Assembly (NCBI GenBank): GCA_021741195.1
Contig: JAIOYL010000014.1
Span: forward strand, 1-34,034
Direction of reading: 5' to 3'
DNA: 34,034 nt
Origin: Sneathiella sp.
GTDB lineage: Bacteria > Pseudomonadota > Alphaproteobacteria > Sneathiellales > Sneathiellaceae
Below the pieces are notes generated by a model. The model ran no database searches. It was not told the origin of the DNA and worked only from the letters and a program-made list of their open reading frames with translations. This document shows positions 5,508 through 33,744 of this stretch, one piece after another; the stretch's first letter is position 1; the number at the start of each line of letters is the position of its first letter. Made by a program: the position numbers and the translations under genes.

Positions 5508-6248
5508 TTATAGCCTGGTCGCTCGGAGAAGCTCTTCCATATCCGAAAAAACTGAACAATCGGGCAAGGCGGGACGCTCGATCATCAGGACCGGAATGCC
5601 AAACTCCCGCGCCGCCGCAATCTTGGCATAGGTCGCCGCGCCGCCGCTGTTCTTGCTGATCAGAAGTTCGATCCTGTATTCGGTTAGAAGTCTGAAATCT
5701 TCTTCCATAGAGAAGGGACCGCGCGCCCGGAGAAATTCTACCTCAGACTGAGACGGCGCGAAATCGACATTCTCAATGCTTCGGATCAGGAAGAACTTAT
5801 CAGAGCACCTTTCGAATGGCGCGAGTTCCTGTCGTCCTATGGTAAGAAAAATGCGATTGAAGCCAGCCAGCTGCCCGGCTGCCGCCTCGATGCTTGGAGC
5901 TGAAACCCAGCGATCCCTCGCCTCTTCCTTCCATGCGGGCCGTTGATAGCGCAAATAGCGGATTCCTGTATCCTTACAGGCGGTGAAGGCGTTTTGCGTC
6001 ATTCTGCCGGCGAAGGGGTGGCTCGCATCGATAACGAGTTCGATATGACGATCTCTAATAAATTTTTTAAGGCCGACCACCCCCCCGAAACCGCCAACCA
6101 TTTTTTCACCGATCAGGGGCACCGGATTTTGGGTGCGCCCGGCAAGGGAGGTAACAAGATCAATATCGGGTCGCGCCGACAACAACTGATTGAGCTTTAC
6201 CCCCTCCTGCGTCCCGCCAACCAGGAGGATCTTTTTCCGATCAGTCAT
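5508..6248 (-). CDS. cobK: Precorrin-6A / cobalt-precorrin-6A reductase (CobK/CbiJ)
   Basis: 246 aa: KILLVGGTQEGVKLNQLL..., LVIDASHPFAGRMTQNAFTAC, RYLRYQRPAW, ISKNSGG, VLMIERPALP. Confidence 0.93.
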   Translation of the reverse strand: MTDRKKILLVGGTQEGVKLNQLLSARPDIDLVTSLAGRTQNPVPLIGEKMVGGFGGVVGLKKFIRDRHIELVIDASHPFAGRMTQNAFTACKDTGIRYLRYQRPAWKEEARDRWVSAPSIEAAAGQLAGFNRIFLTIGRQELAPFERCSDKFFLIRSIENVDFAPSQSEVEFLRARGPFSMEEDFRLLTEYRIELLISKNSGGAATYAKIAAAREFGIPVLMIERPALPDCSVFSDMEELLRATRL

Positions 6249-7353: not shown

Positions 7354-7395
7354 TGATGGCTAGGCGCTCTCGAAATAGATGTGTAAAAGAAGAGT

Positions 7396-8196
7396 ATGGA
7401 CAAAATATTGAGTAAAATGCCAGCCTTTGAGGCAGGCTCGGTCTGGCTGGTTGGGGCTGGCCCCGGCGATGCCGGACTGCTGACTTTGTACGCATACGAG
7501 GCCCTTCGGCAAGCGGATGTGCTAGTCTATGACGCGCTGGTTGGTCAGGATATCCTGGAACTGACAGGTCTGGACACGATCCTTGAATATGCGGGCAAAC
7601 GCGGCGGCAAACCCTCACCGAAGCAGAAGGATATCACGGAGCGCCTGATTTCACTCGCCCGCGAAGGAAAAAAGGTGCTGCGCCTTAAAGGTGGCGATCC
7701 CTATATCTTCGGCCGGGGCGGCGAAGAAGCCCTGATGCTCGCGGCAAACAACGTCCCCTTTCGGGTGATACCGGGTATTTCTTCCGGCGTTGGCGGCCTC
7801 GCTTATGCCGGTATCCCCCTCACCCATCGGGAGATCAATTCGGCGATCACCTTCCTTACCGGCCATGACGCGAGCGGTGAAGTTCCCAATGTGAAATGGG
7901 AGCATATCGCGAAAGGATCCCCGGTCGTTGTGATTTATATGGGGCTCAAGCATATCAAATTAATTACGGAACGGCTGATCGAATTCGGACGTCCAAAGGA
8001 AGAGCCCGTCGCCGTGATTTTTCGGGCGACGCTGGAAGATCAGGAAGTTATCGTCAGCACACTCGAAAACGCCGCAAGCGATGTCGAAAAAAGTGGCCTC
8101 AAGCCGCCTGCCCTGATCGTCATCGGTGAGACCGTGGGCCTCCGGCCGGAACTTGACTGGTTCGGGAAATTTCTTGATGGCAAAAAGGGGGCCTGA
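7396..8196 (+). CDS. cobA: Uroporphyrinogen-III C-methyltransferase (SUMT)
   Basis: 266 aa: VWLVGAGPGDAGLLTLYAYEALRQADVLVYDALV, RLKGGDPYIFGRGGEEA, VIPGISSGVGGLAYAGIPLTHR. Confidence 0.96.
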   Translation: MDKILSKMPAFEAGSVWLVGAGPGDAGLLTLYAYEALRQADVLVYDALVGQDILELTGLDTILEYAGKRGGKPSPKQKDITERLISLAREGKKVLRLKGGDPYIFGRGGEEALMLAANNVPFRVIPGISSGVGGLAYAGIPLTHREINSAITFLTGHDASGEVPNVKWEHIAKGSPVVVIYMGLKHIKLITERLIEFGRPKEEPVAVIFRATLEDQEVIVSTLENAASDVEKSGLKPPALIVIGETVGLRPELDWFGKFLDGKKGA

Positions 8197-8198
8197 CC

Positions 8199-9515
8199 AT
8201 GGCCGCCACGCGTGCTCCAGCCCTTCTTATTGCGGCGCCGGCCTCGGGGTCCGGGAAAACAACGCTGACACTCGCTCTCCTCCGTGCTTTTCGCCGGCAC
8301 GAGAAGAAAGTCGGCTCCTTCAAGGTCGGGCCGGACTATATCGATCCCGCCTTTCATGAACGCGCCTCCGGCAATCCTTGCTTTAATCTCGATCCTTGGG
8401 CCATGCGCAAATCCACCCAGTCCGCCGTCCTCGATGCCGCTTTTTCCGGCAAAAACCTCGTGATTGGCGAGGGCGTCATGGGGCTTTTCGATGGCGCGCA
8501 GGATGGCTCCGGATCAACAGCCGATGTTGCCGCCGATTGGGGCCTTCCCATTCTTTTGATTGTCGACGCCAAAGGCCAAGCGGCGAGTGTCGCCGCATTG
8601 CTTCAGGGATTTAATTGTTTCAGGAAGGATATCCGCATTTCCGGCGTTATTTTCAACAAGGTTGGCGGCGCGGGCCATGTCCGCTTGCTTGAGGAAGCGG
8701 CGGCGAAGGCGGGCATCCCTGCATTTGGTTTCGTGCCAAAATCGGCCGCCTTGACCCTTGATCACCGTCATCTCGGCCTTGTGCACGCGCGTGAAAATAT
8801 GAACATGGAGAGTTTTCTGGATACTGCCGCTGATATCATCGAAGCGACCTGCGATCTCGCAGGGCTCAGAAAAATTGCGAAAGCCCCTTTTGCCGGAACA
8901 AAATCAAATACAGGTTCCCTGCCCCCGCTTGCGCAAAGAATAGCTATTGCCGAAGACGACGCCTTTGCCTTCACCTATCCGCATTTGCTTGCAGGCTGGC
9001 GAGCGGAGGGGGCTGAAATTTCCTTTTTTTCGCCGCTGGCCGACGAGGCCCCGCCCTTGGATGCCGAGGCTGTTTTCCTGCCGGGCGGGTATCCCGAGCT
9101 TTACTGTGAACGGCTGTCGACAGCAGAAAACTTTAAAGCAGGCATGCGGGCCGCTGCTGCCCGCAACAAGCCGATTTATGGGGAATGCGGTGGGTTCATG
9201 GTTCTCGGAAAATGCCTTACGGACAGGGAGGGCAACTCCCATGAAATGCTGGGCCTGCTTCCAGTGGAGACATCTTTCGCCGCCCCGCAACTGCATCTCG
9301 GCTATCTCAGGGCAAGGCTCTCTAGCGATTGCATTCTAGGAAATATTATGGCGAGTTTCACAGCCCATGAATTTCATTACGCGAGCATTGTGTTGCAGGA
9401 AGCAACGCGGCCATTGTTCGAAATCGTAAATGCCCGAAATGAGAGCCTTGGCGCGACGGGCGCCGTTGCGGGCTCGGTGTCCGGCTCCTTTATACATCTG
9501 ATTGACAGGTGCTAG
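8199..9515 (+). CDS. cobB: Cobyrinate a,c-diamide synthase (CobB/CbiA)
   Basis: 438 aa: LLIAAPASGSGKTTLTLALLRAFRRHEKKVGSFKVGPDYIDPAFH, FLPGGYPELY, IYGECGGFMVLG (GATase motif). Confidence 0.95.
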   Translation: MAATRAPALLIAAPASGSGKTTLTLALLRAFRRHEKKVGSFKVGPDYIDPAFHERASGNPCFNLDPWAMRKSTQSAVLDAAFSGKNLVIGEGVMGLFDGAQDGSGSTADVAADWGLPILLIVDAKGQAASVAALLQGFNCFRKDIRISGVIFNKVGGAGHVRLLEEAAAKAGIPAFGFVPKSAALTLDHRHLGLVHARENMNMESFLDTAADIIEATCDLAGLRKIAKAPFAGTKSNTGSLPPLAQRIAIAEDDAFAFTYPHLLAGWRAEGAEISFFSPLADEAPPLDAEAVFLPGGYPELYCERLSTAENFKAGMRAAAARNKPIYGECGGFMVLGKCLTDREGNSHEMLGLLPVETSFAAPQLHLGYLRARLSSDCILGNIMASFTAHEFHYASIVLQEATRPLFEIVNARNESLGATGAVAGSVSGSFIHLIDRC

Positions 9516-9516
9516 A

Positions 9517-10029
9517 ATGAACGAAGACATCACATTCATCCTTGGCGGCGTGCGCTCCGGCAAAAGCAGATTTGCAGAAAAGCACGCGCGTCAAAGCAAA
9601 CGACAGCGGATATATCTTGCGACAGCCGAGGCCTACGATGCTGAAATGGAAACCCGGATAGCACGACATCAGGAAGACCGCGGTGACGGCTGGACGACCA
9701 TTGAGGAGCCCGTCGATCTTGGCGGCGCGCTCATAAAACAATCTAGCGAAAATAACATTATCCTTGTCGATTGCCTGACACTCTGGCTCAGCAATATCAT
9801 GGGGCGCGAACTTGCCATTGATGAAGAGGTCGACAAGCTGCTCGCCGCCATAAAAAATCTCCCCGGCCCGATTATCTTTGTTTCCAACGAAGTGGGTCAG
9901 GGCATCGTTCCGGACAATGCACTTGCGCGGGCATTCCGGGATCACGCCGGACGGCTGCATCAGCGATTGGCAGAAATCGCCAATTCAGTCTATTTTGTAA
10001 CGGCGGGACTGCCGCAGAAATTGAAATAG
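9517..10029 (+). CDS. cobU: Adenosylcobinamide kinase / adenosylcobinamide-phosphate guanylyltransferase (CobU/CobP)
   Basis: ITFILGGVRSGKSRFAEKHA (P-loop), RIARHQEDRGDGWTTIEEP, LVDCLTLWLSN. ORF track starts at TTG 9502; ATG at 9517 just after the cobB stop is preferred. Confidence 0.94.
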   Translation: MNEDITFILGGVRSGKSRFAEKHARQSKRQRIYLATAEAYDAEMETRIARHQEDRGDGWTTIEEPVDLGGALIKQSSENNIILVDCLTLWLSNIMGRELAIDEEVDKLLAAIKNLPGPIIFVSNEVGQGIVPDNALARAFRDHAGRLHQRLAEIANSVYFVTAGLPQKLK

Positions 10030-10036
10030 GCAAAAA

Positions 10037-10828
10037 ATGGCTGACCCCCTTTCACGCGAACTTCCACCCTACAGGGGCGGCTGGGCCCAGGATTTTCTTG
10101 TGTCCTTGGTGTTCCTGACGCGGCTGCCAGTCCGGCCCGCCTTCACGTTCGAATTGAACGCGCTCAAATCCGCCTGCCGCGCGTTCGCGCTTGTAGGTCT
10201 AATCGTTGGCGGTCTTTCCGGCACAGTGTATATTGTCGCCTCATTTCTCGGCGTGCCGGAACTCATCGCTGCGCTGCTCGCAATTGCAGCGCAAGTTCTA
10301 ATTACCGGCGCCCTTCATGAAGACGCCATCGGAGATGTCGCAGATGGCTTCGGCGGCGGATCGGACAAGGAAAAAAAGCTTGCGATCATGCGTGACAGCC
10401 GCGTCGGCACCTATGCTGTCGTGACCCTTGTTCTGGTGATAGGGATCAAATCCGCGGCCATCAGTGCGGTATCGGACACCCTGATGGGATTCGCCATCAT
10501 TGTCACCGCCGCCTCAATCAGCCGCGGCGTGATGTGCTGGGCGCTCTATTTCCTGCCCGCCGCACGCGGCGACGGTTTAGGACGCGGGGCAGGCCATCCA
10601 GACATGATAGCACCGCTTTGGTCGACCTTCCTTATCATCCTGATCGCAGTCCTGATACTCGGGCCTCAGCTTGGCGCAATTGCGCTCTTTGCCGCGATAT
10701 GTGGCGCGACATTGATGGGACTGATTGCCTGGCGGCAAATCGGCGGGCAAACCGGAGATGTTCTCGGCGCCATCCAGCAGCTTTCGGAACTCGCCGTCCT
10801 GGTTACCTGCCTCGCGGTAGTTGGCTAA
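10037..10828 (+). CDS. cobS: Adenosylcobinamide-GDP ribazoletransferase (cobalamin synthase, CobS/CobV)
   Basis: 263 aa membrane protein: FLVSLVFLTRLPV, TGALHEDAIGDVADGFGGGSDKEKKLAIMRDSRVGTYAV. Confidence 0.94.
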   Translation: MADPLSRELPPYRGGWAQDFLVSLVFLTRLPVRPAFTFELNALKSACRAFALVGLIVGGLSGTVYIVASFLGVPELIAALLAIAAQVLITGALHEDAIGDVADGFGGGSDKEKKLAIMRDSRVGTYAVVTLVLVIGIKSAAISAVSDTLMGFAIIVTAASISRGVMCWALYFLPAARGDGLGRGAGHPDMIAPLWSTFLIILIAVLILGPQLGAIALFAAICGATLMGLIAWRQIGGQTGDVLGAIQQLSELAVLVTCLAVVG

Positions 10829-15575: not shown

Positions 15576-16322
15576 ATGTTACAACAGATTTCAGAAATTG
15601 AAGCCCATTCCCGTGGCGCCATACCGGCGCTTCACACGGAAGAGTATGACGGCTGGCATTTGCGTTTCGCCAGGAACCATACACGCCGCGCCAATTCGGT
15701 CAATGTCCTGACGCCCGGCATACTGCCGCTGTCTGAGAAGATTGGGCATTGCGAAGCATCTTATGAGCGTGTCGAACAATCCTGTCATTTCCGCCTGACA
15801 CCCCTAGCGGATCCCGATCTCGATGACGAACTCGCGGCAAGAGGATATGGTTTTTTCGGGGAAACAGAGGTCAGGGCCATCAACCTGCCGGAACTCGAAT
15901 TGCCGGAAATCAGTCCGGATGTCCAGATATCCGATTGCTATTCGGAAACCTGGTTGAGCGGCCTCGCTGCATTAACCGGGCAAAATATGGAAAAACAGGC
16001 GGTTTTTCGCGAAATGTTGGACCATATCGACATGGATATCCATTGCCTAGGCATTTCCCGAGGATCGAAAATCGTCGCCTGCGGCCTTGGCGTCAGTTCA
16101 TCGACCCATCTCGGGCTTTTCGAATTTGCCACCCATCCGAAATATCGCCGTCAGGGTCTGGCTGCCCGAATAGCCTGGCATCTTCTTGGCGAAGCAAAGA
16201 AGACCGGACTCGAATGGGCTTACCTCCAGGTCGTGAAATCCAATAAAGCGGGGATCGACTTCTGGGGGCGCGTCGGATTTACCGAACCATTATACAGCTA
16301 TCACTACCGGACAAAATCATAG
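15576..16322 (+). CDS. GNAT family N-acetyltransferase, substrate unknown
   Basis: 248 aa. C-terminal GNAT acetyl-CoA motif: [32 protein letters not shown]...[21 protein letters not shown]. Confidence 0.85.
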
Positions 16323-16805
16323 CTCAAGCCTTATGTCCGGCTCGTCAAAATAATATTCGTCACAGTTCTCGCCTTCGCCGCCGCGATCGATGACGAGAAA
16401 ATCACTCACCGCTTCCAAAGCGAGGACCGGATGATGCCAGGTTCCGGCATGGTAATTGACGCCCTGGCTACCCGTCGACAGAAAGGCGCGTAGATCGTCA
16501 GGCGCAACCGTATCGCCTTTTGGCGCCACCAGCACCAGATAGGGGCGATTATTGAGCGGAACGAAGGCCTGACTACCTTTTGGGTGCCGCTCGACCAACC
16601 GGACGGCCAGCGGATAGCTAAGCGGGCTTGCGCGGAAAATATTTACGAGGACCCAGCCGCCAGCGTCCGTTTCAATCTTCGCCAGATCGTGAAAACGGAC
16701 GGTTGATCCCTCATTGATCAGAAAATTATCTGCGCCGTCGGTTTCGATCACATCGCCGAAGGGCGCAAAACCTTCTCTCGTGAGCGGTGCTATTTTCAGT
16801 TTCAT
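16317..16805 (-). CDS. allA: Ureidoglycolate lyase
   Basis: 162 aa: [96 protein letters not shown]. Confidence 0.95.
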
Positions 16806-17827
16806 TTGCCCAACCTGCTGATTTTTCCATAAAGCCTGAGGCGGCTGACCCCGCCATCGGGGATGATGTTCAGGCGGGCATGGCTCACTGGGCCTATATC
16901 CGCCACTTCACGCTCAAATTTGTGGATCGCATCCATGGTGAGCTTCTGTTCGGGAAGAAGCGTTTTCCAGAACATGCTTTGGGTCACCAGAGAATCCTCC
17001 GTGCCGCCGGTCACCAGCGCCGCCTGTATGGAGCAACGGTCCGGATAATTTCCCTTGAAATGAGCCGTATCGACTTCTATTTTCGAAATCACGCCGGGAT
17101 AGCCAAGAGCGATCAGGGCCCAATCATTCCCCGGCTCCCGGCGACGACGGGTTTCCCATCCGTCCCCCATATTTACGCCACGTCCCGGTGCAAGGATTTG
17201 TGACGGAGTACCATAATGCTGGTCGCTGGCCGCGATCCCCCGCCCGCCGTTGACGAGGGCTGCAAGATCAATAAGTTCGTTCGGATCGTGTTTTTCCCAG
17301 TTACACTGGACCTCACCATAGACACGAAGCCGTGCAACGCCGCCGTCCGGATAGATGTTGAGACGCAAATGGCTCCATGTTTTACTGTCCGCAATCGCGT
17401 GCAGGTGAGGGCTGTTTCCCTTCAAACTGACGGCGGGCAGGATTTCTGTCCATTTTGTTGCCGCGGTCGGTTCTCCCTCAACAAGGCAGGCCTCCAGCGA
17501 TGCGGCAGGCGGAAAATTTCCGGTAAAATGGCTGGTATCAATATTCACTCCGTGAATGATGCCGGACAGACCAAGGCGGATAATACAATGATCGAACCCT
17601 TCTCCGCGTTTGCGGCGGCTTTCCCATCCATCCATCCATTTCCCGTTATCATCATATTTGTCAGCAATGAAGACAGGCTCCGCTGGGTCGATCAACCGCG
17701 ATTTATCAGCGAAGAAATCATCGGTCGCGAAGATCACCTCACTGCCGAGGCGCGGCGAGGCAAGATCAATAAATTTCACGGCAAACCCGGCGGTGTCAGT
17801 GGACAACAAGGTCATTCTTTTCTCCAT
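16802..17827 (-). CDS. alc: Allantoicase
   Basis: 341 aa with two allantoicase repeats: [59 protein letters not shown] and [54 protein letters not shown]. Confidence 0.96.
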
Positions 17828-17856
17828 CAGCGGGGCTCTGGAGCCCTCTAAAATCT

Positions 17857-18369
17857 CTACAAATCCATCAATCGGAAACGGGCAATCTTGTCTATTTCAG
17901 CAAGCGCCGTCCGAAATTCTTCATCTGCCGAATTTTTCAGGCGCCTCTCAAACCCTGCCAGAATATCATAGCGATTGCTGTTCCTGACTGCTTTGATAAA
18001 AGGAAAGCCGAATTTGTTTTTATAGGCCTTGTTATAGGTTTGGAATGCCGCGAATTCCCCAGGACTGCAATCTCCAAGCCCCGCGCCTGATTGTTCTGAC
18101 GTTGACGCCGTCGTCAGTACGCCTTGCACGGCTGCCTTTCCAGCGAGGTCGGGATGTGCCTTGATCAGTGCACGCTTTTCAGATTCCGCCGCATCGGCGA
18201 CGATGCCGGCCATCAGATCGGCAAGCGCGTCCACCTCATCATGCTTTTCCATGATTCCCGCTGCCCAGGCCCGCTCGGCAACCCAGGGAGAGTGCTCATA
18301 TATTCCGCCAAATCTTTCAATAAATTGAACATAGTTCATTTTACTAGGTAACATGCTAAATTTTGTCAC
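17857..18369 (-). CDS. uraD: 2-oxo-4-hydroxy-4-carboxy-5-ureidoimidazoline (OHCU) decarboxylase
   Basis: 170 aa: [50 protein letters not shown]. Possible shorter start at 18339. Confidence 0.94.
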
Positions 18370-19298
18370 TTATCGATTTTCCCCGAGTTTGGCGGATGTT
18401 GTTCATGCCAGTGCCGGGCGATCTCAATACGGCGGCAAAACCAGACCGCGTCATGCCCCTTGGCATATTTGAGGAAGCGCTTGAGCGCGGCGATCCGCCC
18501 CGGTCGCCCGACGAGTCGGCAATGCAGGCCGACCGACATCATTTTAGGCGCCGTCGCTCCCTCCTCATAGAATGTGTCGAAGCTGTCCTTGAGATAAGTG
18601 AAATACTGATCGCCACTATTGAACCCCTGCAGGGATGCGAAGCGCATGTCATTCACATCAAGTGAATAGGGAACAATGAGTTGATGACGGCCCACTTCCG
18701 TGATCCAGTAAGGCAGATCGTCGTCATAGGCGTCAGCATCGTAGAGGAACCCGCCCTCTTCCGCCACCAACCGCCGTGTGTTGGGGCTGGTCCGGCCGGT
18801 ATACCAACCCAATGGCCGCTGGCCCGTCATCCGCTCAATTATCTCGATCGCCTGTCGCATATGGGAGCGCTCGACAGTTTCGGGCACATACTGATAATTG
18901 ATCCAGCGGTAGCCATGGCTGCAAATCTCATGACCAAGATCAACAAAGGCCCGCGTAACCTCCGGATTCCTTTCGAGAGCCATAGCCACGCCGAAAATGG
19001 TGAGCGGGATATCAAATTTCTCGAACAACCGGAGCAGGCGCCAAACACCTGCACGGCTGCCATACTCATAGAGCGATTCCATGCTGATATGGCGAACACC
19101 AACAAGCGGCTGGGCACCGATGATTTCCGACAGAAAGGATTCCGATGCATCATCCCCGTGCAGGATTGAGTTCTCACCGCCCTCCTCATAATTGAGGACA
19201 AATTGCAGCGCAATACGGGCCCCTCCCGGCCATTTTGGATCCGGTGGCGTCGCGCCATAGCCAATCATGTCACGGGGGTATTTTCCCTTCCCGGTCAC
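18366..19298 (-). CDS. puuE: Allantoinase, polysaccharide-deacetylase-like PuuE type
   Basis: 310 aa: YPRDMIGYGATPPDPKWPGGARIALQFVLNYEEGGENSILHGD, HEICSHGYRWINYQ, GWYTGRTSPNTRRL, GLHCRLVGRPGRIAALKRFLKY. Confidence 0.95.
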   Translation of the reverse strand: MTGKGKYPRDMIGYGATPPDPKWPGGARIALQFVLNYEEGGENSILHGDDASESFLSEIIGAQPLVGVRHISMESLYEYGSRAGVWRLLRLFEKFDIPLTIFGVAMALERNPEVTRAFVDLGHEICSHGYRWINYQYVPETVERSHMRQAIEIIERMTGQRPLGWYTGRTSPNTRRLVAEEGGFLYDADAYDDDLPYWITEVGRHQLIVPYSLDVNDMRFASLQGFNSGDQYFTYLKDSFDTFYEEGATAPKMMSVGLHCRLVGRPGRIAALKRFLKYAKGHDAVWFCRRIEIARHWHEQHPPNSGKIDK

Positions 19299-20041
19299 GC
19301 AACTTCCCCCGATTTGACTGATGGTTTAGAAAAAATCGAATACAGATCGGCTTTAGGCTCAGTATCGCTTAAATTGAGTTGGTCTTCACAGGCTTGCAAA
19401 TGAGCCTGCATCAGGGCAACCGCCTGTTCCTCATTCCCGCCTTCAATCGCCTCAATAATGTCCGTATGTTCAGCACAGCTGCAAGGTGAAAGATTTCCCT
19501 TCTGATATTGTACAATGATCAGCGATGTGCGGGAAACCAGTTCCTTGACATAGGCTGCCAACGTCTCATTTCCGGCGATTACCGCCAGTTTCAGATGAAA
19601 ATCCCCAGAGAGGCGAACCCAAGCCTCATGATTCCCCTTGTCCAGGCTCTGCCGTTCCGCCGATACAGATCTCCGGAGATCCCTTATACCTGTCGGTGTC
19701 TGGTTCCGGACGGCCATTCGCACAATCCCTTCCTCGATCAGGCGTCGCGCCTGCAGGACTTCATGCGCCTCGTCAGGTGTCGGTTCCGAGACGAAGGCAC
19801 CCCGGTTCGGATGAATTTGCACAATCCGCTCATGAGCCAGCCGTTGCAAAACAGTCCTGATTACCGTGCGGCTAACGCCAAATATTTCGCCGAGAGTGTC
19901 CTCGGATAACTTGGTGCCAGGGGCTAATCGTTGCTCTAGAATGGCGGCAAACATGTCTTCATATATGCGCTCGTTCTGGGCGGCCTTGCGCGGTGGCTTA
20001 TCGGTCCGGTTCAAAGCGACTGTTGGGGCAGTCCTGCTCAT
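19295..20041 (-). CDS. GntR-family transcriptional regulator (FCD effector domain), probable regulator of the purine locus
   Basis: 248 aa: KLSEDTLGEIFGVSRTVIRTVLQRLAHERIVQIHPNRGAFVSEPTPDEAHEVLQARRLIEEGIVRMA (wHTH plus FCD start). First gene of the leftward purine operon, divergent from uraH. Confidence 0.9.
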   Translation of the reverse strand: MSRTAPTVALNRTDKPPRKAAQNERIYEDMFAAILEQRLAPGTKLSEDTLGEIFGVSRTVIRTVLQRLAHERIVQIHPNRGAFVSEPTPDEAHEVLQARRLIEEGIVRMAVRNQTPTGIRDLRRSVSAERQSLDKGNHEAWVRLSGDFHLKLAVIAGNETLAAYVKELVSRTSLIIVQYQKGNLSPCSCAEHTDIIEAIEGGNEEQAVALMQAHLQACEDQLNLSDTEPKADLYSIFSKPSVKSGEVA

Positions 20042-20076
20042 GAAAAATCCTCAAATTTATGCGATTCCCTCACTCC

Positions 20077-20108
20077 ATTTATACAATATAAAAAATTATT
20101 GTATACAA
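20077..20108. promoter_or_regulatory. Candidate GntR operator pair overlapping a candidate leftward promoter
   Basis: Perfect palindrome TTGTATACAA (20099-20108) and a second related site ATTTATACAA (20077-20086) 22 bp away. On the minus strand, TTGTAT-N17-TGTATA resembles -35/-10 boxes and falls on the two sites. Confidence 0.5.
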
Positions 20109-20198
20109 AATAAATAAATTATGTGGACAATCTGTTTTGTGTCATGCAAAGTTTTGTGACGGCTTCGGACGACGCCAACAAAGGCCTGAAGGATTGAG

Positions 20199-20552
20199 AT
20201 GGGGAAACTGACAACGCATGTTCTGGATACCGCCGCAGGGATACCCGGAAAGGGAATCCGGATAGATCTGTACCAGCTGTCAGACGGCAGACGGGCGTTG
20301 ATTGATACGCGCGTTACAAACGCGGACGGGCGTTGCGACGCGCCAATTCTGGAGGGTCAGAATTTCAAGCGCGGCAAGTATGAGCTGGTTTTCCATATGG
20401 GGAGCTATTTTGACACGACAGGCATTGAGTTGCAGGAACCCAAGTTTCTCGACGACATTGTTTTGAGATTTGGGATTAGCGATGCGGACGAGCATTACCA
20501 TGTCCCCCTCCTCGTCTCGCCGTACAGCTATTCTACCTATCGCGGCAGTTAG
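20199..20552 (+). CDS. uraH: 5-hydroxyisourate hydrolase (transthyretin-related)
   Basis: 117 aa: LTTHVLDTAAGIPGKGIRIDLYQL, TNADGRCDAPIL, HYHVPLLVSPYSYSTYRGS (C-terminal YRGS). Confidence 0.97.
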   Translation: MGKLTTHVLDTAAGIPGKGIRIDLYQLSDGRRALIDTRVTNADGRCDAPILEGQNFKRGKYELVFHMGSYFDTTGIELQEPKFLDDIVLRFGISDADEHYHVPLLVSPYSYSTYRGS

Positions 20553-20578: not shown

Positions 20579-20604
20579 GTAAAAATTCGATTTTGGAAGA
20601 TGTC

Positions 20605-22071
20605 ATGCGCCAGAAACTGAAATATGTGCATCGGGGGGAAATTGTCGAGTTGGCGGATTTTGATCCGACGACGACAGTTCTCAATTATCTCCGGTATGAA
20701 CGGGCGCTGACCGGCACCAAGGAAGGCTGCGCGGAAGGCGACTGCGGCGCCTGTACTGTAGTCCTCGGAGATCTGGTTGAGGGAAAGCTTCGCTATCAGG
20801 CCGTTAATGCCTGCATTCAGTTTCTCCCCACTCTCGATGGCAAGGAGTTGATCACCGTCGAGGATTTGAAGTCAGAGGACGGCACCCTGCATCCGGTGCA
20901 GACGGCGATGGTCGAAGCAAATGGCACTCAGTGTGGATTTTGCACACCGGGGTTCGTGATGTCGATGTTCGCCGAGATGCATACAAATGAAAATACGGAT
21001 CGTCGACACCTCAACAATGTCCTGGCGGGGAATCTCTGCCGCTGCACCGGTTATGGCCCCATCGTTGAGGCGGCGGCGAAAATCGCGACATTGGGAGCCA
21101 AGGATCAGTTCCATGACCGTGAAATTGTGACGACCGCTCTTCTTGAAAGCCTTGATAATGAGCCTGCACTTCATCTCAATTGGCAAGACCGCCAATATTT
21201 TGCCCCGAAAACCGTCGACGAACTGGCGCGCTTTCTGGGCGAGCATCCCGATGCGACAATTCTTGCCGGGGCGACGGACGTCGGGCTTTGGGTAACGAAG
21301 CAACATCGCGAATTAAAGTCGGTCGTCTATATTGGCCAGATCGACGCGCTAAAAACTATCGAGGAAGAAGACGGACAGCTCATCATTGGCGCTGGCGTCA
21401 CCTATAGCGACGTCTGGGATACTCTCACCCGCCACTATCCGGACTTTGGTGAGTTGATCCGGCGCATTGCCTCAACCCAGATCCGCAATAGCGGAACCAT
21501 TGGAGGCAATATTGCCAACGGCTCCCCGATTGGCGATACACCGCCCGCGTTGATCGTGCTTGAAGCCACGCTTCGGCTGCGTTCCAAAAGCGGGCATCGC
21601 GATGCCCCGCTTGAAGATTTCTTTATCGGCTATGGAAAACAGGATTTACGCTCCGGTGAATTCGTCGAGGCCGTTCTGCTGCCGCTTCCACGAAAGGACA
21701 GCCGCTTTGCAACCTATAAAATCTCCAAACGTTTCGATCAGGATATCTCTGCTGTCTGCGCTGCATTCCACCTGACCCTCGATAGCGGAAAAGTTGACAC
21801 TATCCGGATATGTTATGGCGGCATGGCGGGAACGCCAAAGCGCGCGATTGCAGCCGAGCAGGCCATCATCGGCAGGAAATGGTCGGAAGAGACCATTGAG
21901 GCTGCATTGACAGTGATAACCGAAGATTATCAACCGATGACGGATATGCGCGCAAGCAAGCAATACAGAATGTTGGCGGCGCAGAACTTGCTGAAAAAAT
22001 TCTATATCGAAACATCTGCACCCGGCATTGCGACGCGGATTGTCGGCGAAGGAGGACTTGCCTATGCGTAG
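20605..22071 (+). CDS. xdhA: Xanthine dehydrogenase small subunit (2Fe-2S / FAD), XdhA
   Basis: GCAEGDCGACTVVLG and CGFCTPGFVMSM...NLCRCTGYGPI Fe-S motifs; FAD domain (ILAGATDVGLWV, TIGGNIANGSPIGDTPPALI). ORF track starts at TTG 20593; ATG 20605 with upstream GGAAG is preferred. Confidence 0.96.
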   Translation: MRQKLKYVHRGEIVELADFDPTTTVLNYLRYERALTGTKEGCAEGDCGACTVVLGDLVEGKLRYQAVNACIQFLPTLDGKELITVEDLKSEDGTLHPVQTAMVEANGTQCGFCTPGFVMSMFAEMHTNENTDRRHLNNVLAGNLCRCTGYGPIVEAAAKIATLGAKDQFHDREIVTTALLESLDNEPALHLNWQDRQYFAPKTVDELARFLGEHPDATILAGATDVGLWVTKQHRELKSVVYIGQIDALKTIEEEDGQLIIGAGVTYSDVWDTLTRHYPDFGELIRRIASTQIRNSGTIGGNIANGSPIGDTPPALIVLEATLRLRSKSGHRDAPLEDFFIGYGKQDLRSGEFVEAVLLPLPRKDSRFATYKISKRFDQDISAVCAAFHLTLDSGKVDTIRICYGGMAGTPKRAIAAEQAIIGRKWSEETIEAALTVITEDYQPMTDMRASKQYRMLAAQNLLKKFYIETSAPGIATRIVGEGGLAYA

Positions 22072-24418
22072 CCCTCCCGCCAACACAAGGGAAATTCAGG
22101 GTCAGGTTCATAGCGCCCATCCCCATGACAGCGCCGCGAAGCAGGTTGCTGGGGACGCCCTTTATATTGATGATATCGCGGAGCCTAAGGATCTCCTTCA
22201 TCTTTATATCGCGCAAAGTGAAAAGGCCCATGCAAAGCTTCTGAAGATGGATGTTTCAGCGGTCAGGACCGCGCCCGGCGTTGTTGCCGTACTGACGGCT
22301 GAAGATGTGCCGGGAGTAAATGACGCTGCCCCACTTGCCGGTGATGATCCGGTGTTCGCAGAAGGGATTGTCGAATATGCGGGCCAGTCTTTATTTGCTG
22401 TCGCGGCTGAAACAATGGACCAGGCACGCGCTGCAGCGAAGCTTGCAATAATTGAATATGAAGAACTCCCGGCGATTGTCACCGTTGAGCAGGCGATGGA
22501 AGCAAGCTCCTTTGTCCTGCCCCCCCGGGAGATCCGGCGCGGCGACGCCACCAAAGCGATAACAACGGCAAAGCACCGGTTGCGCCAGCGCTTAGAAATC
22601 GGCGGACAGGATCATTTCTATCTCGAAGGCCATGTCGCCCTCGCACTTCCCGGTGAGGACGGCGATATCTTCGTTCATTCCTCGACCCAACATCCGACGG
22701 AGATTCAGCATAACGTCGCCAAATTCCTTGATCTGCCGGATCATTCGGTCACCGTCGAGATACGGCGGATGGGCGGCGGCTTTGGCGGCAAGGAAACGCA
22801 AGGCGCCTGGTTCGCGGCGATTGCGGCGCTCGCGGTGAAGATGACCGGTCGGCCAGCGAAAATTCGCCTCGATCGGGACGACGATATGATTATGACCGGC
22901 AAACGCCATGACTTTGTTGCCACCGTCGAGATGGGTTTCGATGATGAAGGGCGCGTGAGCGGAGCTGAATTCATTTTCGCATCGCGCTGCGGCCGATCTG
23001 TGGATTTATCTGCCTCCATTAACGACCGGGCGATGTTCCATGCTGATAATTGCTATTACTTTGAGAATGTCACGATCATCTCCCATCGCTGCAAGACGCA
23101 CACGGTTTCAAACACGGCATTCCGCGGCTTCGGCGGTCCGCAAGGTATGCTCGCGCCGGAACGGATGATGGACGCCATCGCCTGCTACCTCGGCAAGGAT
23201 CCGCTTGAGGTGCGCAAAAGCAATCTCTATGGCAAGGAAACACGCAACGTCACCCCTTACCAAATGACGGTCGAGGACAATATTGCGCCAGAGATTATTA
23301 CCGAGCTTGAAAAGAGCGCCGACTATGCCGCGCGCCGGAACGCTATCCGCGCTTTCAACAGGATGAGCCCCTATCTCAAGAAAGGCATCGCGCTGACGCC
23401 TGTGAAATTCGGTATCTCCTTCACTGCATCCCATCTTAATCAGGCTGGCGCCCTTTTGCATGTCTATACGGATGGCAGTGCCATGATCAACCATGGTGGC
23501 ACCGAGATGGGCCAAGGGCTTTATATCAAGGTCGCGCAGGTCGTCGCTGAGGTTCTCCAAATCGATATCGAGCGGGTTAAAATCACGGCGACCAGGACCG
23601 ACAAGGTGCCAAACACCTCACCGACTGCCGCATCTTCCGGCGCGGATCTGAACGGCAAGGCGGCCGAGGCCGCGGCGCTGTCTATTAAGGAGCGGCTCAT
23701 CACTTTCGCTGCCGCCCATTATGATATTGCTGCGGACGAAATTAAATTCCTGCCGAACAGAGTGCGCATCGGAAAAGACGAGATTTCGTTCAAGGATCTG
23801 GTGCAGCTTGCTTATATGAACCGGATTTCGCTTTCCGCAACAGGATATTACCGCACACCGAAAATTCACTATGATGCCACGACCCTCTCCGGCCGGCCGT
23901 TTTATTATTTCGCCTATGGCGCGGCCGTCTCAGAGGTGATCATCGATACCTTAACCGGCGAGAACAAGGTTGTTGCGGTGGATATTCTCCATGATACCGG
24001 CAAGAGCCTCAATCCCGCGATCGACCTTGGCCAGATCGAAGGAGGTTATATTCAGGGCATGGGGTGGCTGACAACGGAAGAGCTTTACTTCGATGCCAAG
24101 GGTATTCTGAAAACGCACGCCCCCTCCACATATAAGATTCCAGCCTGTAGCGATCGCCCGGCGATTTTCAATATGAAGATCTTTGAGCGCGGCGAGAATA
24201 TCGAAGAAACGATCTTCCGATCGAAAGCTGTCGGCGAACCCCCTTTCATGCTCGCCATCTCTGCCTTCAACGCCATTGCAGATGCCATTTCCAGTGTCGC
24301 CGATTACCACCTCTATCCCGACCTCGACGCACCCGCGACACCGGAGCGAGTGCTGATGGCCGTGCAGAAAATAACCGAAACCGTCCACGAGAGCGAACTG
24401 ACGGAAGCCGCACAATGA
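22064..24418 (+). CDS. xdhB: Xanthine dehydrogenase molybdopterin-binding large subunit, XdhB
   Basis: GGGFGGKETQ, AFRGFGGPQGMLAPERMMD, GGTEMGQGLYIKVAQV, QIEGGYIQGMGWLTTEEL. ORF track starts at 22028; ATG 22064 with GGAGG upstream is preferred. Confidence 0.96.
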   Translation: MRSPPANTREIQGQVHSAHPHDSAAKQVAGDALYIDDIAEPKDLLHLYIAQSEKAHAKLLKMDVSAVRTAPGVVAVLTAEDVPGVNDAAPLAGDDPVFAEGIVEYAGQSLFAVAAETMDQARAAAKLAIIEYEELPAIVTVEQAMEASSFVLPPREIRRGDATKAITTAKHRLRQRLEIGGQDHFYLEGHVALALPGEDGDIFVHSSTQHPTEIQHNVAKFLDLPDHSVTVEIRRMGGGFGGKETQGAWFAAIAALAVKMTGRPAKIRLDRDDDMIMTGKRHDFVATVEMGFDDEGRVSGAEFIFASRCGRSVDLSASINDRAMFHADNCYYFENVTIISHRCKTHTVSNTAFRGFGGPQGMLAPERMMDAIACYLGKDPLEVRKSNLYGKETRNVTPYQMTVEDNIAPEIITELEKSADYAARRNAIRAFNRMSPYLKKGIALTPVKFGISFTASHLNQAGALLHVYTDGSAMINHGGTEMGQGLYIKVAQVVAEVLQIDIERVKITATRTDKVPNTSPTAASSGADLNGKAAEAAALSIKERLITFAAAHYDIAADEIKFLPNRVRIGKDEISFKDLVQLAYMNRISLSATGYYRTPKIHYDATTLSGRPFYYFAYGAAVSEVIIDTLTGENKVVAVDILHDTGKSLNPAIDLGQIEGGYIQGMGWLTTEELYFDAKGILKTHAPSTYKIPACSDRPAIFNMKIFERGENIEETIFRSKAVGEPPFMLAISAFNAIADAISSVADYHLYPDLDAPATPERVLMAVQKITETVHESELTEAAQ

Positions 24419-25467
24419 GCAACTGGGCGGACATATTAACGGTATTCACGCCGGAGGAGGGGCCCGCCGTTCTTGTCACCGTCGGGGCGATCAAGGGTTC
24501 AACGCCGCGCGATACCGGCGCTAACATGCTGGTAACGACGAAGAGGACTGCCGGAACCATCGGCGGCGGACGGCTGGAATATCTGGCGATTGAGAAAGCG
24601 CGCGCCATGTTGAGCGACTATAGCGCAGATGCGCAAATCCTGAAGCTACCGCTTGGACCGGATCTCGCGCAGTGCTGCGGGGGCCATGTTGATATCCTTA
24701 TGGATAAGCTGGAAGCCGATGAGGTGTTAAATTTATTTAACCGGTTAAATATACTTAATGACTTTGGCGTTCTGCTGTCCCACTGGTCGAAAAAGGGATC
24801 CCGCCGACAGCTCGCCGGGATAAGCGACTGCCCCATCTATATCGACAAACCGCTGCAATCCGCAATCGAACGGAGAATTGTTGCTCCGGGCGCGGAGATT
24901 GTTTTCTCTCCCACAGATAAAGCGAGTTTTACGCTTGTGCAGTCCCTAAACAATGCAGAATTTCATATAACCCTTTTCGGCGCGGGACATGTTGGAAAAG
25001 CCCTTGTCCATGTGTTATCGCCGCTCCCCTGCTCGATTATCTGGGTCGATCAGCGCGAGGATACGTTTCCCGATCACATCCCCTCCAACGTCCGAAAAAT
25101 TGTGACCGACAGCCCGGCGGACCAGGTTGCGGGCAGCCTGGCAAACAGTTTCTTTCTGGTCATGACCCATAGCCACCAACTGGACTTGGAGATTTGCGAA
25201 ACACTGCTCAACCAAAGATCGGATGAAGCCTATATCGGCGTGATTGGCTCAAAGACAAAAAAGGCGAAGTTTGAAAAGCGTCTTGCGCTCCGCGGCTTCG
25301 ATGCCGGAACGATCGCGCGGATAACCTGTCCGATCGGGCTCGACCATTTGAACGGAAAGCGCCCGGCGGAAATTGCCTTAAGCGTCGCAACAGATATTCT
25401 TCTTCGGCATCGGCGCGCGGTTGAAAGAAAGGCTTCGACAAAGGTGGAAGGTGCAAATGGAATATAA
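24415..25467 (+). CDS. xdhC: Xanthine dehydrogenase accessory protein XdhC (Moco-binding chaperone)
   Basis: 350 aa: VTVGAIKGSTPRDTGANMLVT, GTIGGGRLEYLAIEKAR, LGPDLAQCCGG, LFGAGHVGKALV, GVIGSKTKKAKFEKRL. ATGA overlap with xdhB. Confidence 0.95.
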   Translation: MSNWADILTVFTPEEGPAVLVTVGAIKGSTPRDTGANMLVTTKRTAGTIGGGRLEYLAIEKARAMLSDYSADAQILKLPLGPDLAQCCGGHVDILMDKLEADEVLNLFNRLNILNDFGVLLSHWSKKGSRRQLAGISDCPIYIDKPLQSAIERRIVAPGAEIVFSPTDKASFTLVQSLNNAEFHITLFGAGHVGKALVHVLSPLPCSIIWVDQREDTFPDHIPSNVRKIVTDSPADQVAGSLANSFFLVMTHSHQLDLEICETLLNQRSDEAYIGVIGSKTKKAKFEKRLALRGFDAGTIARITCPIGLDHLNGKRPAEIALSVATDILLRHRRAVERKASTKVEGANGI

Positions 25468-25561
25468 TTGCGCTTTGCTGACAGACAGCGGAACGCTATC
25501 TGCGAGAATAAAATAACGCGGATTGGGCCGCAACAGTTTGAGAACGAGGGGGATGTGTTGA

Positions 25562-27115
25562 ATGACTATTGGCAGCGGAGAAACACCGCAGCTGGAATTA
25601 CGGGGGATTACAAAACAATATCCCGGATGTCTGGCCAACGATCATATCGATCTCAAGATAATGCCCGGCGAAATTCATGCATTGCTCGGTGAAAATGGAG
25701 CGGGCAAAAGCACCCTCGTAAAAACCATCTATGGCGTCCTTGAAGCTGACGAAGGCGAGATTTTCTGGGCCGGAGAGCTGGTCAAAATCCCGAACCCGCA
25801 TGCCGCCCGAAAAATTGGCATCGGCATGGTGTTCCAGCATTTCTCGCTATTTGAAGCGATGACGGTCACCGAGAATATCGCACTCGGGATGTCCGGACGA
25901 CAGGATATGAAAGCCCTCGAAAAACAAATTATTGAGGTTTCCAGCAATTACGGCCTGCCCTTGGAGCCACGCCGGCAGGTGCATACGCTTTCTGTCGGTG
26001 AAAAGCAGCGCATTGAAATCGTTCGCTGCCTGCTCCAGGATCCCAAGCTCCTGATCATGGATGAGCCGACGTCGGTTCTCACGCCCCAGGAAGCCGCGAA
26101 AATGTTCGAAACGCTTCGCCGCCTTTCTTCCGAAGGTGTTTCCATCCTTTACATCAGCCACAAGCTCGATGAGATCAAGGCGCTCTGCCACAAGGCGACA
26201 ATTCTCCGCGGCGGCAAATATATCAGCGAATGCGACCCGACGCTTGAAACGGCCAAAAGTCTCGCCGAGATGATGATTGGCACGGACCTCCACGCGCCTG
26301 AGCATAATATCGAGGAGAACACGGGCCCAATTCGCCTGAAAGTCCGGAATCTCAGCGTCGACGCGGACATCGAATTTGGCATTAATCTCAGCACCATTAA
26401 TTTCGAGGTCCACAGCGGGGAAATTCTGGGCATCGCAGGTGTCGCCGGTAACGGGCAGGTGGAACTACTTTCCGCATTGAATGGCGAAACCAAATGCGAA
26501 GATGGTGAAGCCATTGAGCTTGACGGAAAAGCGATCGGCCGTCTTGGGCCGAACCAGCGCCGCAATCTCGGCCTCGCCTTTGTGCCGGAGGACAGGCTTG
26601 GACATGGTTCCGTCCCGGAAATGATGCTGACGGAGAATGCGTTTTTAAGTGGTTACAGCCGTATGCAGCTTATGAACAGCGGCTTTATCAATACCGGTGC
26701 GACCGCCGCCTATGCCAAGGAAATTGTCGACAAGTTCGACGTCCGGACACCTGGAATCCATCACACGGCGAACAGCCTTTCAGGCGGGAACCTGCAGAAA
26801 TTCATTGTCGGCCGGGAAGTCCTGCAAAAGCCCAATGTCATTATTGTCGCCCATCCGACCTGGGGGGTTGACGCGGGGGCGGCGGCCTCCATTCACCAGA
26901 CACTCATTGATCTTGCGGAAGCCGGCGGCGCTGTTCTTGTCGTCAGCCAGGATCTCGATGAGCTGTTCGCCATCAGCGGCCGTATTGCCGTAATCGCCGA
27001 CGGCCGACTGTCTGTTAGCCGCAACCTTAAAGAAATCACAATTGAAGAAATTGGTCTTCTGATGGGTGGCACCCATAGCATGGGCGAAACCGGAGGGCGG
27101 TCACATGTTGCTTAA
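25562..27115 (+). CDS. ABC transporter ATP-binding protein with two ABC domains, BMP-type purine/nucleoside importer
   Basis: 517 aa: LLGENGAGKSTLVKTIYG, LSVGEKQRIEIVRCLL, LLIMDEPTSVLTPQEA; second half GVAGNGQVELLSAL, SGGNLQKFIVGRE. Confidence 0.93.
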   Translation: MTIGSGETPQLELRGITKQYPGCLANDHIDLKIMPGEIHALLGENGAGKSTLVKTIYGVLEADEGEIFWAGELVKIPNPHAARKIGIGMVFQHFSLFEAMTVTENIALGMSGRQDMKALEKQIIEVSSNYGLPLEPRRQVHTLSVGEKQRIEIVRCLLQDPKLLIMDEPTSVLTPQEAAKMFETLRRLSSEGVSILYISHKLDEIKALCHKATILRGGKYISECDPTLETAKSLAEMMIGTDLHAPEHNIEENTGPIRLKVRNLSVDADIEFGINLSTINFEVHSGEILGIAGVAGNGQVELLSALNGETKCEDGEAIELDGKAIGRLGPNQRRNLGLAFVPEDRLGHGSVPEMMLTENAFLSGYSRMQLMNSGFINTGATAAYAKEIVDKFDVRTPGIHHTANSLSGGNLQKFIVGREVLQKPNVIIVAHPTWGVDAGAAASIHQTLIDLAEAGGAVLVVSQDLDELFAISGRIAVIADGRLSVSRNLKEITIEEIGLLMGGTHSMGETGGRSHVA

Positions 27116-28181
27116 GATCGAGAAACGCGCCGAATATTCGAAGGCAATGGTTTACCTCACGCCTGTGATCGCTCTGGTACTGACAGTGCTGGCCAGCATC
27201 ATTTTGTTTAAACTACTTGGGGTTAATCCAATTGAGGCTCTGTATCAGTTTTTTGTTGCGCCACTTGATTCCAAATATGAACTTTCGGAACTCTTCGTAA
27301 AGGCGACGCCTCTTATTCTCTGCGCTATCGGTCTGTCCGTTGGCTTTCGCGCCAATGTCTGGAATATCGGGGCGGAGGGGCAGCTGACCATGGGAGCGAT
27401 CGTCGGGAGCAGCCTTTTCATATATTTTCCCGAAACAGAGAGTGTCTTCCTGTTGCCCGCGATGATTATGCTGGGCGCCGTCGGCGGCGGCGCCTGGGCA
27501 GCAATCCCGGCGTATTTCAAGACCCGCTTCAATGCGAATGAAATATTGACCAGCCTGATGCTTGTCTACGTTGCCATTCTGGTTCTCTCTCTACTTGTCC
27601 ATGGGCCCTGGCGGGACCCGGCCGGCTTCAATTTTCCGGAATCCCAGACGTTCAGTCCGAGCGCCACCATGCCCATCCTTGTCTCCGGCACCCGCATGCA
27701 TTTTGGCACTTTACTTGCCTTGCTTGCCGTTCTTGGCACCTGGATCATGTTGGCCCGCACCCTCATTGGGTTTCAGGTAAAAGTCATCGGAGCCGCGCCA
27801 AGGGCAGGCGGTTATGCCGGATTCAGCCAGAAGAAAGTTGTCTGGTTCGTCCTGCTTTTTGGGGGCGCCATGGCGGGCATTGCCGGAATATCGGAAGTGA
27901 GTGGCCCCATTGGCCAGGTTCTCCCCACAATTTCGCCCGGCTACGGCTTCACTGCCATTATTGTTGCCTTTCTTGGACGGCTGCACCCCGTCGGTATCTT
28001 TTTTGCTGGCCTGCTTATGGCGCTCACCTATCTGGGCGGCGAGACGGCACAGATCAGTCTTGGTCTGCCTGTAGCGGTAACCGGCGTCTTTCAGGGCATG
28101 GTCCTCTTCTTCCTGCTCGCCTGTGACGTTCTCGTTCACTACCGTTTCCGTCTGAATACTGCAAGAAAGGTCGTATCCTGA
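27105..28181 (+). CDS. ABC transporter permease (YufP/BMP-associated type)
   Basis: Hydrophobic protein: ATPLILCAIGLSVGFRANVWNIGAEGQLTMGAIVG, ARAGGYAGFSQKK, PGYGFTAIIVAFLGRLHPVG. ATG 27105 (MLLKIEKRAEYSK) preferred over GTG 27066. Confidence 0.92.
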   Translation: MLLKIEKRAEYSKAMVYLTPVIALVLTVLASIILFKLLGVNPIEALYQFFVAPLDSKYELSELFVKATPLILCAIGLSVGFRANVWNIGAEGQLTMGAIVGSSLFIYFPETESVFLLPAMIMLGAVGGGAWAAIPAYFKTRFNANEILTSLMLVYVAILVLSLLVHGPWRDPAGFNFPESQTFSPSATMPILVSGTRMHFGTLLALLAVLGTWIMLARTLIGFQVKVIGAAPRAGGYAGFSQKKVVWFVLLFGGAMAGIAGISEVSGPIGQVLPTISPGYGFTAIIVAFLGRLHPVGIFFAGLLMALTYLGGETAQISLGLPVAVTGVFQGMVLFFLLACDVLVHYRFRLNTARKVVS

Positions 28182-29110
28182 TGTCTGGATTTGATTGGAT
28201 CACTCCGGTAATCCTCACCGTCATCACGGCGGCCACTCCCCTAGTCTTCGCTGGCATCGGCGAACTCATCACGGAAAAGTCAGGCGTGCTTAACCTTGGC
28301 GTCGAGGGAATGATGCTTGTCGGTGCCGTAAGTGGGTTTATAACGGCCACCGTTACCGGAAACTATTTCCTTGCCGTCGCCGCCGCTGCGCTTGCCGGTG
28401 CCATAATGGCTTTTCTGTTCGGCATCCTGACATTATCGTTGATGGCAAATCAGGTCGCGACCGGTCTCGCGCTGACCCTGTTTGGCGTGGGCCTGAGCGC
28501 CTTGATGGGGCAGAATTTTGTCGGCCAGCCGGTCGCAGCACTGGCCAAGCTCGATATCCCGGGTTTATCTGACCTGCCTTTTATCGGCCCAATCCTTTTC
28601 GGCCAGGACGGGCTGGTCTATCTTTCTTTTGTTATGGCTATTGTGGTCAGCTGGTTTCTCTATAAAACCAAGGCCGGACTTATTTTGCGCGCCGTCGGTG
28701 ATTCACATGACGCCGCCCATTCGATCGGTTATTCAGTGATCGGCATTCGTTATCTCGCTGTAATGTTTGGCGGCGCGATGTCAGGAATCGGCGGCGCTTA
28801 TCTGTCGCTCGCCTACACCCCTATGTGGGCGGAGAATATGACAGCAGGTCGGGGCTGGATTGCCCTCGCACTGATCGTCTTCGCTACATGGAAGCCTGGT
28901 CTTGTGGTCGTCGGTGCCTATATGTTTGGCGGCATTACGATTTTGCAGTTGCACGCGCAGGCCGCGGGACTTAACGTGCCTTCACAGGTTCTTTCCATGC
29001 TGCCTTATCTTGCAACCGTATTTGTTCTCGTCTTGATATCGAAAGATCAATCCCGGATCAGAAAACATGCGCCGGCCTGTATCGGCAAGATTTTTCATCC
29101 AGCTGCTTAA
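28181..29110 (+). CDS. ABC transporter permease (YufQ/BMP-associated type)
   Basis: 309 aa: TAATPLVFAGIGELITEKSGVLNLGVEGMMLVGAVSGF, MFGGAMSGIGGAYLSLAYTPMW, GRGWIALALIVFATWKP. Confidence 0.93.
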   Translation: MSGFDWITPVILTVITAATPLVFAGIGELITEKSGVLNLGVEGMMLVGAVSGFITATVTGNYFLAVAAAALAGAIMAFLFGILTLSLMANQVATGLALTLFGVGLSALMGQNFVGQPVAALAKLDIPGLSDLPFIGPILFGQDGLVYLSFVMAIVVSWFLYKTKAGLILRAVGDSHDAAHSIGYSVIGIRYLAVMFGGAMSGIGGAYLSLAYTPMWAENMTAGRGWIALALIVFATWKPGLVVVGAYMFGGITILQLHAQAAGLNVPSQVLSMLPYLATVFVLVLISKDQSRIRKHAPACIGKIFHPAA

Positions 29111-29151
29111 TCCACAGGAAATAACAATCACTTATGACAAAGGAGAAAGTA

Positions 29152-32475
<3,324 letters not shown>

Positions 32476-32541
32476 ACAGTTTGCCCATAAAAATATTTGC
32501 GATGCAGTTGGAAACATTTTCAGTTTGAGGGACAGGCGTAA

Positions 32542-33744
32542 ATGGAAATAGATCTTATGGAATGGGCCCAGCTGGCCATTCGCTGGATCCATATGATTAC
32601 CGGGATCGCCTGGATCGGGGCCTCCTTTTACTTCGTCTGGCTCGACATGAACCTGACCCCGCCGGTCAAGGACGGTTATAAAGACAAGGCTGGCGTTAGT
32701 GGAGAGCTCTGGGCTGTGCATGGTGGTGGCTTTTACGAGGTGCAGAAATACCGCCTCGCCCCACCGGAAATACCGCCAACACTCCATTGGTTCAAATATG
32801 AAGCCTATTTCACATGGTTCAGCGGCATTACCCTGCTCACAATCCTCTATTATTTCAGTGCCGACATCTATCTGATCGACAGGAGCATTGCCAATATTTC
32901 AACCGATGCGGCTATCCTGATCGGGGTCGGTTCCATTGTCGGCGGCTGGATCATTTATGACCTGCTATGCAAATCGCCCCTGATCAACAATCAGGCCGTA
33001 TTCGGCGTTGTCCTCTTTATCCTGTTTACCCTCGCCGCCTTCGGCTTGTCGCATGTGTTCAGTGGGCGTGGCGCCTATATTCATGTCGGCGCGATCATGG
33101 GCACCATCATGTTCGCCAATGTTTTGATGGTGATCATTCCGGGCCAGATGGCGCTGGTATCGGCCGCAAAGAAAGGCGAAGCGCCGGATCCGGTATATGG
33201 CCTCCGGGCGAAACAGCGGTCGCTTCACAACAATTATTTCACGCTGCCGGTGCTGTTCATCATGATCAGCAATCATTATCCAATGACCTATGGCAACCAT
33301 TATGGCTGGCTACTCCTCGCCGGGATATCGCTGGTTGGTGTCCTTGTCCGCCATTTCTTCAACATGAAAAATCAGGGACAGGCGAAGCAGGGCTTCATCC
33401 TGTTGCCAATTGCCTTCATCTTGTTCTTTGCAATTGCCTATGCAGCGGCGCCAAAATCAGAGGATCAGAGTTCAACGGAAAAAGTCCCTTTCACAACAGT
33501 TGAAAAAATCATCCAGGAACGGTGCTCAAGCTGCCATGCCGCTAAGCCCGCAAATGCGGACTTCGAGACGCCTCCGAAAGGGGTGAAGCTGGCAACAGCC
33601 GCCCAGATCCTGCGCGAGAAAACGCGCATCAAACAGCAGGCCGTCAACACCAAGACCATGCCGCTTGGCAATGCTACGCAAATGACTGACGAGGAACGGA
33701 AATTAGTCGGTCGGTGGATTGCTCAGGGCGGCTTAGCGAACTAG
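32542..33744 (+). CDS. puuD: Urate hydroxylase PuuD (membrane urate oxidase with C-terminal cytochrome c domain)
   Basis: 400 aa: WIHMITGIAWIGASFYFVWLDMNLTPP, WAVHGGGFYEVQKY, YLIDRSIANIS, RSLHNNYFTLPVLFIMISNHYPMTYG; C-terminal heme c motif CSSCH. Confidence 0.95.
   Translation: MEIDLMEWAQLAIRWIHMITGIAWIGASFYFVWLDMNLTPPVKDGYKDKAGVSGELWAVHGGGFYEVQKYRLAPPEIPPTLHWFKYEAYFTWFSGITLLTILYYFSADIYLIDRSIANISTDAAILIGVGSIVGGWIIYDLLCKSPLINNQAVFGVVLFILFTLAAFGLSHVFSGRGAYIHVGAIMGTIMFANVLMVIIPGQMALVSAAKKGEAPDPVYGLRAKQRSLHNNYFTLPVLFIMISNHYPMTYGNHYGWLLLAGISLVGVLVRHFFNMKNQGQAKQGFILLPIAFILFFAIAYAAAPKSEDQSSTEKVPFTTVEKIIQERCSSCHAAKPANADFETPPKGVKLATAAQILREKTRIKQQAVNTKTMPLGNATQMTDEERKLVGRWIAQGGLAN

Follow-up and report, generated by a model that had tools for sequence, protein, structure and literature searches.

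Organization of the purine locus

The window, by which we mean the whole stretch of 34,034 nucleotides analysed here, comes from a marine bacterium of the genus Sneathiella and carries two divergent sets of purine-catabolism genes. They are separated by a gap of 157 bp between gntR on the minus strand and uraH on the plus strand, which is, as the sequence-only reading had noted, the only sizeable divergent gap of the purine locus. With a gene set on either side, the gap thus lies between genes for an essentially complete pathway leading from adenosine to glyoxylate. A search for an intrinsic terminator within it found none. The genes and sites are arranged as follows.

16317-19298, minus strand: puuE allantoinase, OHCU decarboxylase (uraD), allantoicase and ureidoglycolate lyase, downstream of gntR
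19295-20041, minus strand: gntR, GntR-family regulator with FCD domain, presumed binder of boxes A-C (Pfam GntR 1e-16, FCD 2.4e-25)
20042-20198: gap between gntR (minus) and uraH (plus)
20077-20086, plus strand: box A, ATTTATACAA, weaker gntR-proximal box, 8/10 copy of box B; its conserved part is the TATACAAT half
20099-20108: box B, TTGTATACAA, perfect palindrome of the GT-N2-AC type
20121-20130, plus strand: box C, ATGTGGACAA, holding the candidate uraH -35 hexamer
20124-20152, plus strand: candidate sigma70 promoter of the uraH-xdh operon (-35 TGGACA, 20124-20129; N17; -10 CAAAGT, 20147-20152)
20199-20552, plus strand: uraH, hydroxyisourate hydrolase, opening the plus-strand purine operon (TIGR02962 above cut-off)
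20593-33744, plus strand: xdhA, xdhB, xdhC, BMP-type ABC transporter, adenosine deaminase, class V aminotransferase and urate oxidase (PuuD-type), collinear

The regulator and its probable operator class

The regulator belongs to the FadR (FCD) subfamily, with an N-terminal helix-turn-helix domain (PF00392, 1e-16) and a C-terminal FCD domain (PF07729, 2.4e-25), both above cut-off. The metal site of FCD domains comprises an Asp or Asn and three His residues, the usual residue four positions before the first His being Asp. H149, H192 and H214, which we take to be these histidines, are invariant in 32 sequences, and Ser145, four residues before the first of them, is invariant as well, including in the outgroups. 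Counted without gaps from the VSRT motif, in the numbering of Suvorova et al. (2015; PMC4494728), the regulator has Glu27, Asp28, Ser37, Arg38 and Thr39. Asp28 and Arg38, the latter in the recognition helix, have been associated with G/C at conserved operator positions (Suvorova et al., 2015) and are invariant in 25 orthologues and seven outgroups.

Operators of the FadR subfamily follow the pattern TKGT/ACMA with GT and AC at a distance of 3, and a distance of 2 marks a minority class that includes HpxS, HypR, MdcY, PrpR, UxuR and others (Suvorova et al., 2015). TTGTATACAA is an A/T-rich palindrome of the TKGT/ACMA pattern with a GT-AC distance of 2, kept in 25 genomes. The half-site TNGTNNNACNA, with its 3-nt centre, had been put forward earlier and does not fit, since GT and AC are 2 nt apart in the Sneathiella boxes.

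Three boxes at a period of 22 bp

The sequence-only reading described a double operator made up of the perfect palindrome B and its 8/10 copy A, 22 bp apart from start to start. Both sites and their spacing hold, but the count does not, because box C, absent from that reading, sits another 22 bp beyond B in the same register and makes the putative operator of the window's species a triple one. Taken alone, the box sequence is modest, only suggestive evidence for an operator. In dinucleotide-shuffled versions of the 157-bp gap, some perfect 10-bp palindrome turns up in 21%, TTGTNNACAA in 1.1%, and a palindrome accompanied by an 8/10 copy at a distance of about two turns in 0.26%. TTGTATACAA has a genome count of 4 versus 3 for the reversed control pattern. 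What carries the case is conservation in 25 genomes, namely the window genome and 24 others of the genus that were searched.

A gntR orthologue is divergent to uraH in all 24 of the other genomes, and phylogenetic footprinting of the gntR-uraH gaps, proposed earlier as a check, recovered the sites in 25/25 genomes, mostly at 22 bp. Box B is found throughout, as a perfect palindrome in 22 genomes and as the variants GTACAC (L012 and L013) and GTTCAC (L016). Box C adjoins uraH in every genome as [TC]GTRGACAAT, and ATGTRGACAAT has a single occurrence in the whole genome. Measured as mean pairwise column identity in the 12 short-gap species, conservation is 0.97 for B, 0.97 for C and 0.88 for A, where the TATACAA columns are nearly invariant; the flanks reach 0.53 towards gntR and 0.39 close to uraH. 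Across the set, pairs of ACAA boxes are spaced by 22 bp in 46 cases and by 44 bp in 13, any other spacing being represented at most 6 times. A few gntR-side pairs in the clade with long gaps are spaced by 21 or 23 bp. The gap of L016 (G023) has four boxes with ACA spacings of 22, 24 and 22 and contains the variant palindromes TTGTACACA and TTGTTCACA.

The boxes could instead be mainly promoter elements, the A+T-rich -35 and -10 hexamers of two divergent promoters, as a -35-like hexamer is found in C, TACAAT in B and TATAAA in A. This would leave the perfect palindrome and the constant 22-bp period of three boxes unexplained, the boxes persist in gaps of 300-400 bp, and L016 has an extra box; we regard such an origin as highly improbable. 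Judged by their sequence and its conservation, the boxes are very probably a real, conserved operator region of the adjacent GntR. Footprinting strongly supports the earlier view that the adjacent FCD-type GntR has its operator here, placed for control of both purine operons; the number of sites and the proposed gntR promoter are excepted.

Two gap architectures and their possible origin

The genus falls into two sister clades that differ in gap layout. In the window's clade (L005-L017) the gap measures about 152-178 bp, with three contiguous boxes and one extra in L016. In the sister clade (L018-L029), half of the genus, it measures about 270-365 bp, and the boxes form two separate putative double operators, ACAAT with TTGTATACAA near gntR and ATACAA with [TC]GTRGACAAT near uraH. 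Divergons with co-operative common double sites and with operon-specific separate ones have both been described (Suvorova et al., 2015). The short-gap clade resembles the former, with sites in mid-gap at a constant 22/22 bp, the four-box array of L016 excepted. The latter kind, whose sites stay beside their respective operons when gaps lengthen, is found in L018-L029 and not in the window's species.

The outgroups closest to the genus (L075-L078 and L080) have gaps of 284-360 bp, so that the short gap is probably the derived state, although the more distant outgroups L030 and L031 have short gaps. In the short clade, the spacer between B and C is 56% like the double on the uraH side in the long clade, versus 37% like the sequence that follows B there. 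Such a resemblance would follow if two doubles had been fused in register by a deletion of 117-174 bp between ATACAA repeats, and the triple array looks like the product of one such event. Two doubles in one clade and a fused triple in its sister would form a natural series for studying how divergent regions shrink with helical phase kept.

Specificity of the sites

Genomes were scanned with a sequence model of the paired sites, taking the best 150 candidates per genome. The purine locus was the top match in 25/25 genomes, and no other convincing match was found in them among these candidates; the paired sites are nearly unique in the genome. In 20 genomes of the class without a strong orthologue the best 150 candidates gave weak matches only, the top one (E 0.002) in a genome with eight scattered matches, and a same-family genome lacking the regulator gave no match among its best 150. 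The sequence-only reading had suggested looking for the palindrome near other purine genes, where none was found, either with TTGTATACAA or with the paired-site model (best 150 candidates per genome).

The sole other intergenic TTGTATACAA in the window genome is in the promoter of a MatR-like FCD gene. In six genomes the 10-mer occurs at 14 places, 6 at the purine locus and 4 just upstream of a MatR-like FCD-GntR; FCD-gene promoters hold 10 of the 14, and the window genome has only 5 FCD genes. The 10-mer alone therefore does not specify the purine GntR, and the MatR-like protein may bind it too. Its presence at a second FCD promoter supports its identity as an FCD operator and raises the question of cross-talk. 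At the MatR-like locus (L003:1501-1510; G000:C116:9194-9203), TTGTATACAA lies about 50 bp upstream of the regulator gene, which adjoins a malonyl-CoA synthase gene, with a TTGTATG box 21 bp before it, and this arrangement recurs in L098, L104 and L106.

One may ask whether the main ligand of the boxes is another protein (the FCD paralogue resembling MatR, say, or a nitrogen regulator), with the adjacent GntR acting elsewhere. The TTGTATG box that accompanies TTGTATACAA at 21 bp before the MatR-like gene speaks for this. Against it, with the best 150 candidates scored in each genome, A and C at 22 bp are found only at the purine locus beside gntR, in every genome of the genus, and no such site is seen in the same-family genome that lacks gntR, which makes another main ligand very unlikely.

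Several other families keep the divergent gntR-uraH arrangement, with boxes TTGTATCC, ACACAATG and GGATACA, in most as pairs 21-24 bp apart. In the nearest other families, the paired-site model gave nothing convincing among the 150 top candidates of each genome, a point against the proposed operator reading; the boxes there are of the altered TTGTATCC/GGATACA types, often still with a spacing of about 22-23 bp. Outside the genus the architecture is kept, and specificity appears to drift.

Candidate promoters and proposed mode of regulation

The pattern TRGACA-N17-CAnnnT is kept 41-94 nt before uraH in 24/25 genomes and is a good candidate for the uraH promoter, with a -10 that is a weak match to consensus. 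The exception is L016, which is without the CAnnnT -10 present in the other 24. Box C overlaps the -35 of this candidate, a feature missed in the sequence-only reading, and the overlap supports repression. The weak -10 would also suit activation, in which case the adjacent GntR would activate the uraH operon from the boxes, or act on it as a dual regulator, and box C would serve as a contact for RNA polymerase recruitment. We consider this unlikely, since the -35 hexamer itself is inside box C and FCD-type regulators most often act as repressors from sites of this kind. Most likely, both operons are repressed by the adjacent GntR.

On the minus strand, TTGTAT-N17-TGTATA had been proposed as the gntR promoter, about 30-35 nt before the start codon. 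This assignment is not supported: its -10 ends 38 nt before the start codon, and TGTATA has neither A2 nor T6, the two most important -10 bases. It was not among the best minus-strand candidates in a scan with simple weights. Other candidates (TTGTAT-N19-TATAAA, TCCACA-N18-TACAAT and ATGACA-N16-CATAAT) are inside or beside the array and not clearly conserved. As the gntR promoter could not be located, autorepression of gntR is weakly founded.

In all, we think it quite probable that the gap acts as a compact control region for two divergent operons, in which GntR dimers on A-B-C repress both operons until a pathway compound releases the protein. FCD-type GntR dimers would in the first place occupy the strong palindrome B and thereby help to fill the weaker A and C, which flank it at exactly 22 bp, about two turns and hence on the same face of the DNA. 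Filling of C would cover the -35 of the uraH-xdh promoter and filling of A and B the stretch where the gntR-puuE-uraD-allantoicase operon starts. Both halves of the pathway and the regulator itself would in this way be repressed, with a pathway compound freeing the protein from the DNA. A more specific possibility, to which we give somewhat less than an even chance, is a cooperative operator for three dimers whose shared central palindrome serves both promoters, which arose by a clade-specific deletion between short ATACAA repeats that fused two ancestral 22-bp doubles in register, and in which box phase helps to separate FCD paralogues. If true, the phase of the outlying boxes (22 bp at the purine locus and 21 bp at the MatR-like locus) would help to keep apart paralogues sharing a core palindrome.

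Relation to known systems

HpxS of the Klebsiella hpx system is linked to purine or allantoin genes, and its gene neighbourhood differs from that in Sneathiella. It shares the GntR/FadR subfamily with the purine regulator and is listed in the 2-nt class; among the open-access papers searched, HpxS appeared only in the review by Suvorova et al. The FadR/FCD operators of the 2-nt class (PMC4494728) have in common with the Sneathiella boxes an A/T-rich palindrome, TTGT/ACAA boxes, a GT-N2-AC centre and a divergon containing the transcription factor. Sneathiella has three boxes at an exact 22-bp period, whereas the extra half-boxes described there are 7-12 nt from the site centre. The MatR-type malonate regulators are likewise FCD-GntR proteins with TTGTATACAA and a second box upstream of their own gene in four Sneathiella genomes; the MatR-like protein is about 30% identical to the purine regulator, and its locus differs in the box distance of 21 bp and in having no box C. 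NanR, another FCD-GntR, puts three dimers on its repeated (GGTATA)3 operator (PMC8012715), which consists of closely packed direct repeats, in contrast to the palindrome with outlying boxes at 22 bp seen here.

Among the open-access papers searched, none had both TTGTATACAA and GntR, and no matching system was found for GntR with purine or urate genes. The predicted operator is newly described and of a known kind; all that sets it apart is the phasing of the triple array and the fusion by which it seems to have arisen. It provides a specific predicted operator for control of purine catabolism in an alphaproteobacterial group, for which none is described in those papers, and a system for asking how FCD paralogues with a common core operator avoid cross-talk.

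Other features of the window

No RNA element was matched in an Rfam search of the window. The listed reading frame of xdhA starts with TTG at 20593, and an ATG about 12 bases further on is the likelier start (20593-20605). The urate oxidase of the PuuD type (32542-33744) has a Urate_ox_N domain and a weak C-terminal match to cytochrome c. The same contig also carries a cluster for cobalamin biosynthesis (window positions 372-10828) with CbiC, CbiG, CbiJ, CbiD, several precorrin methylases, cobyrinate amidotransferase and CobS.
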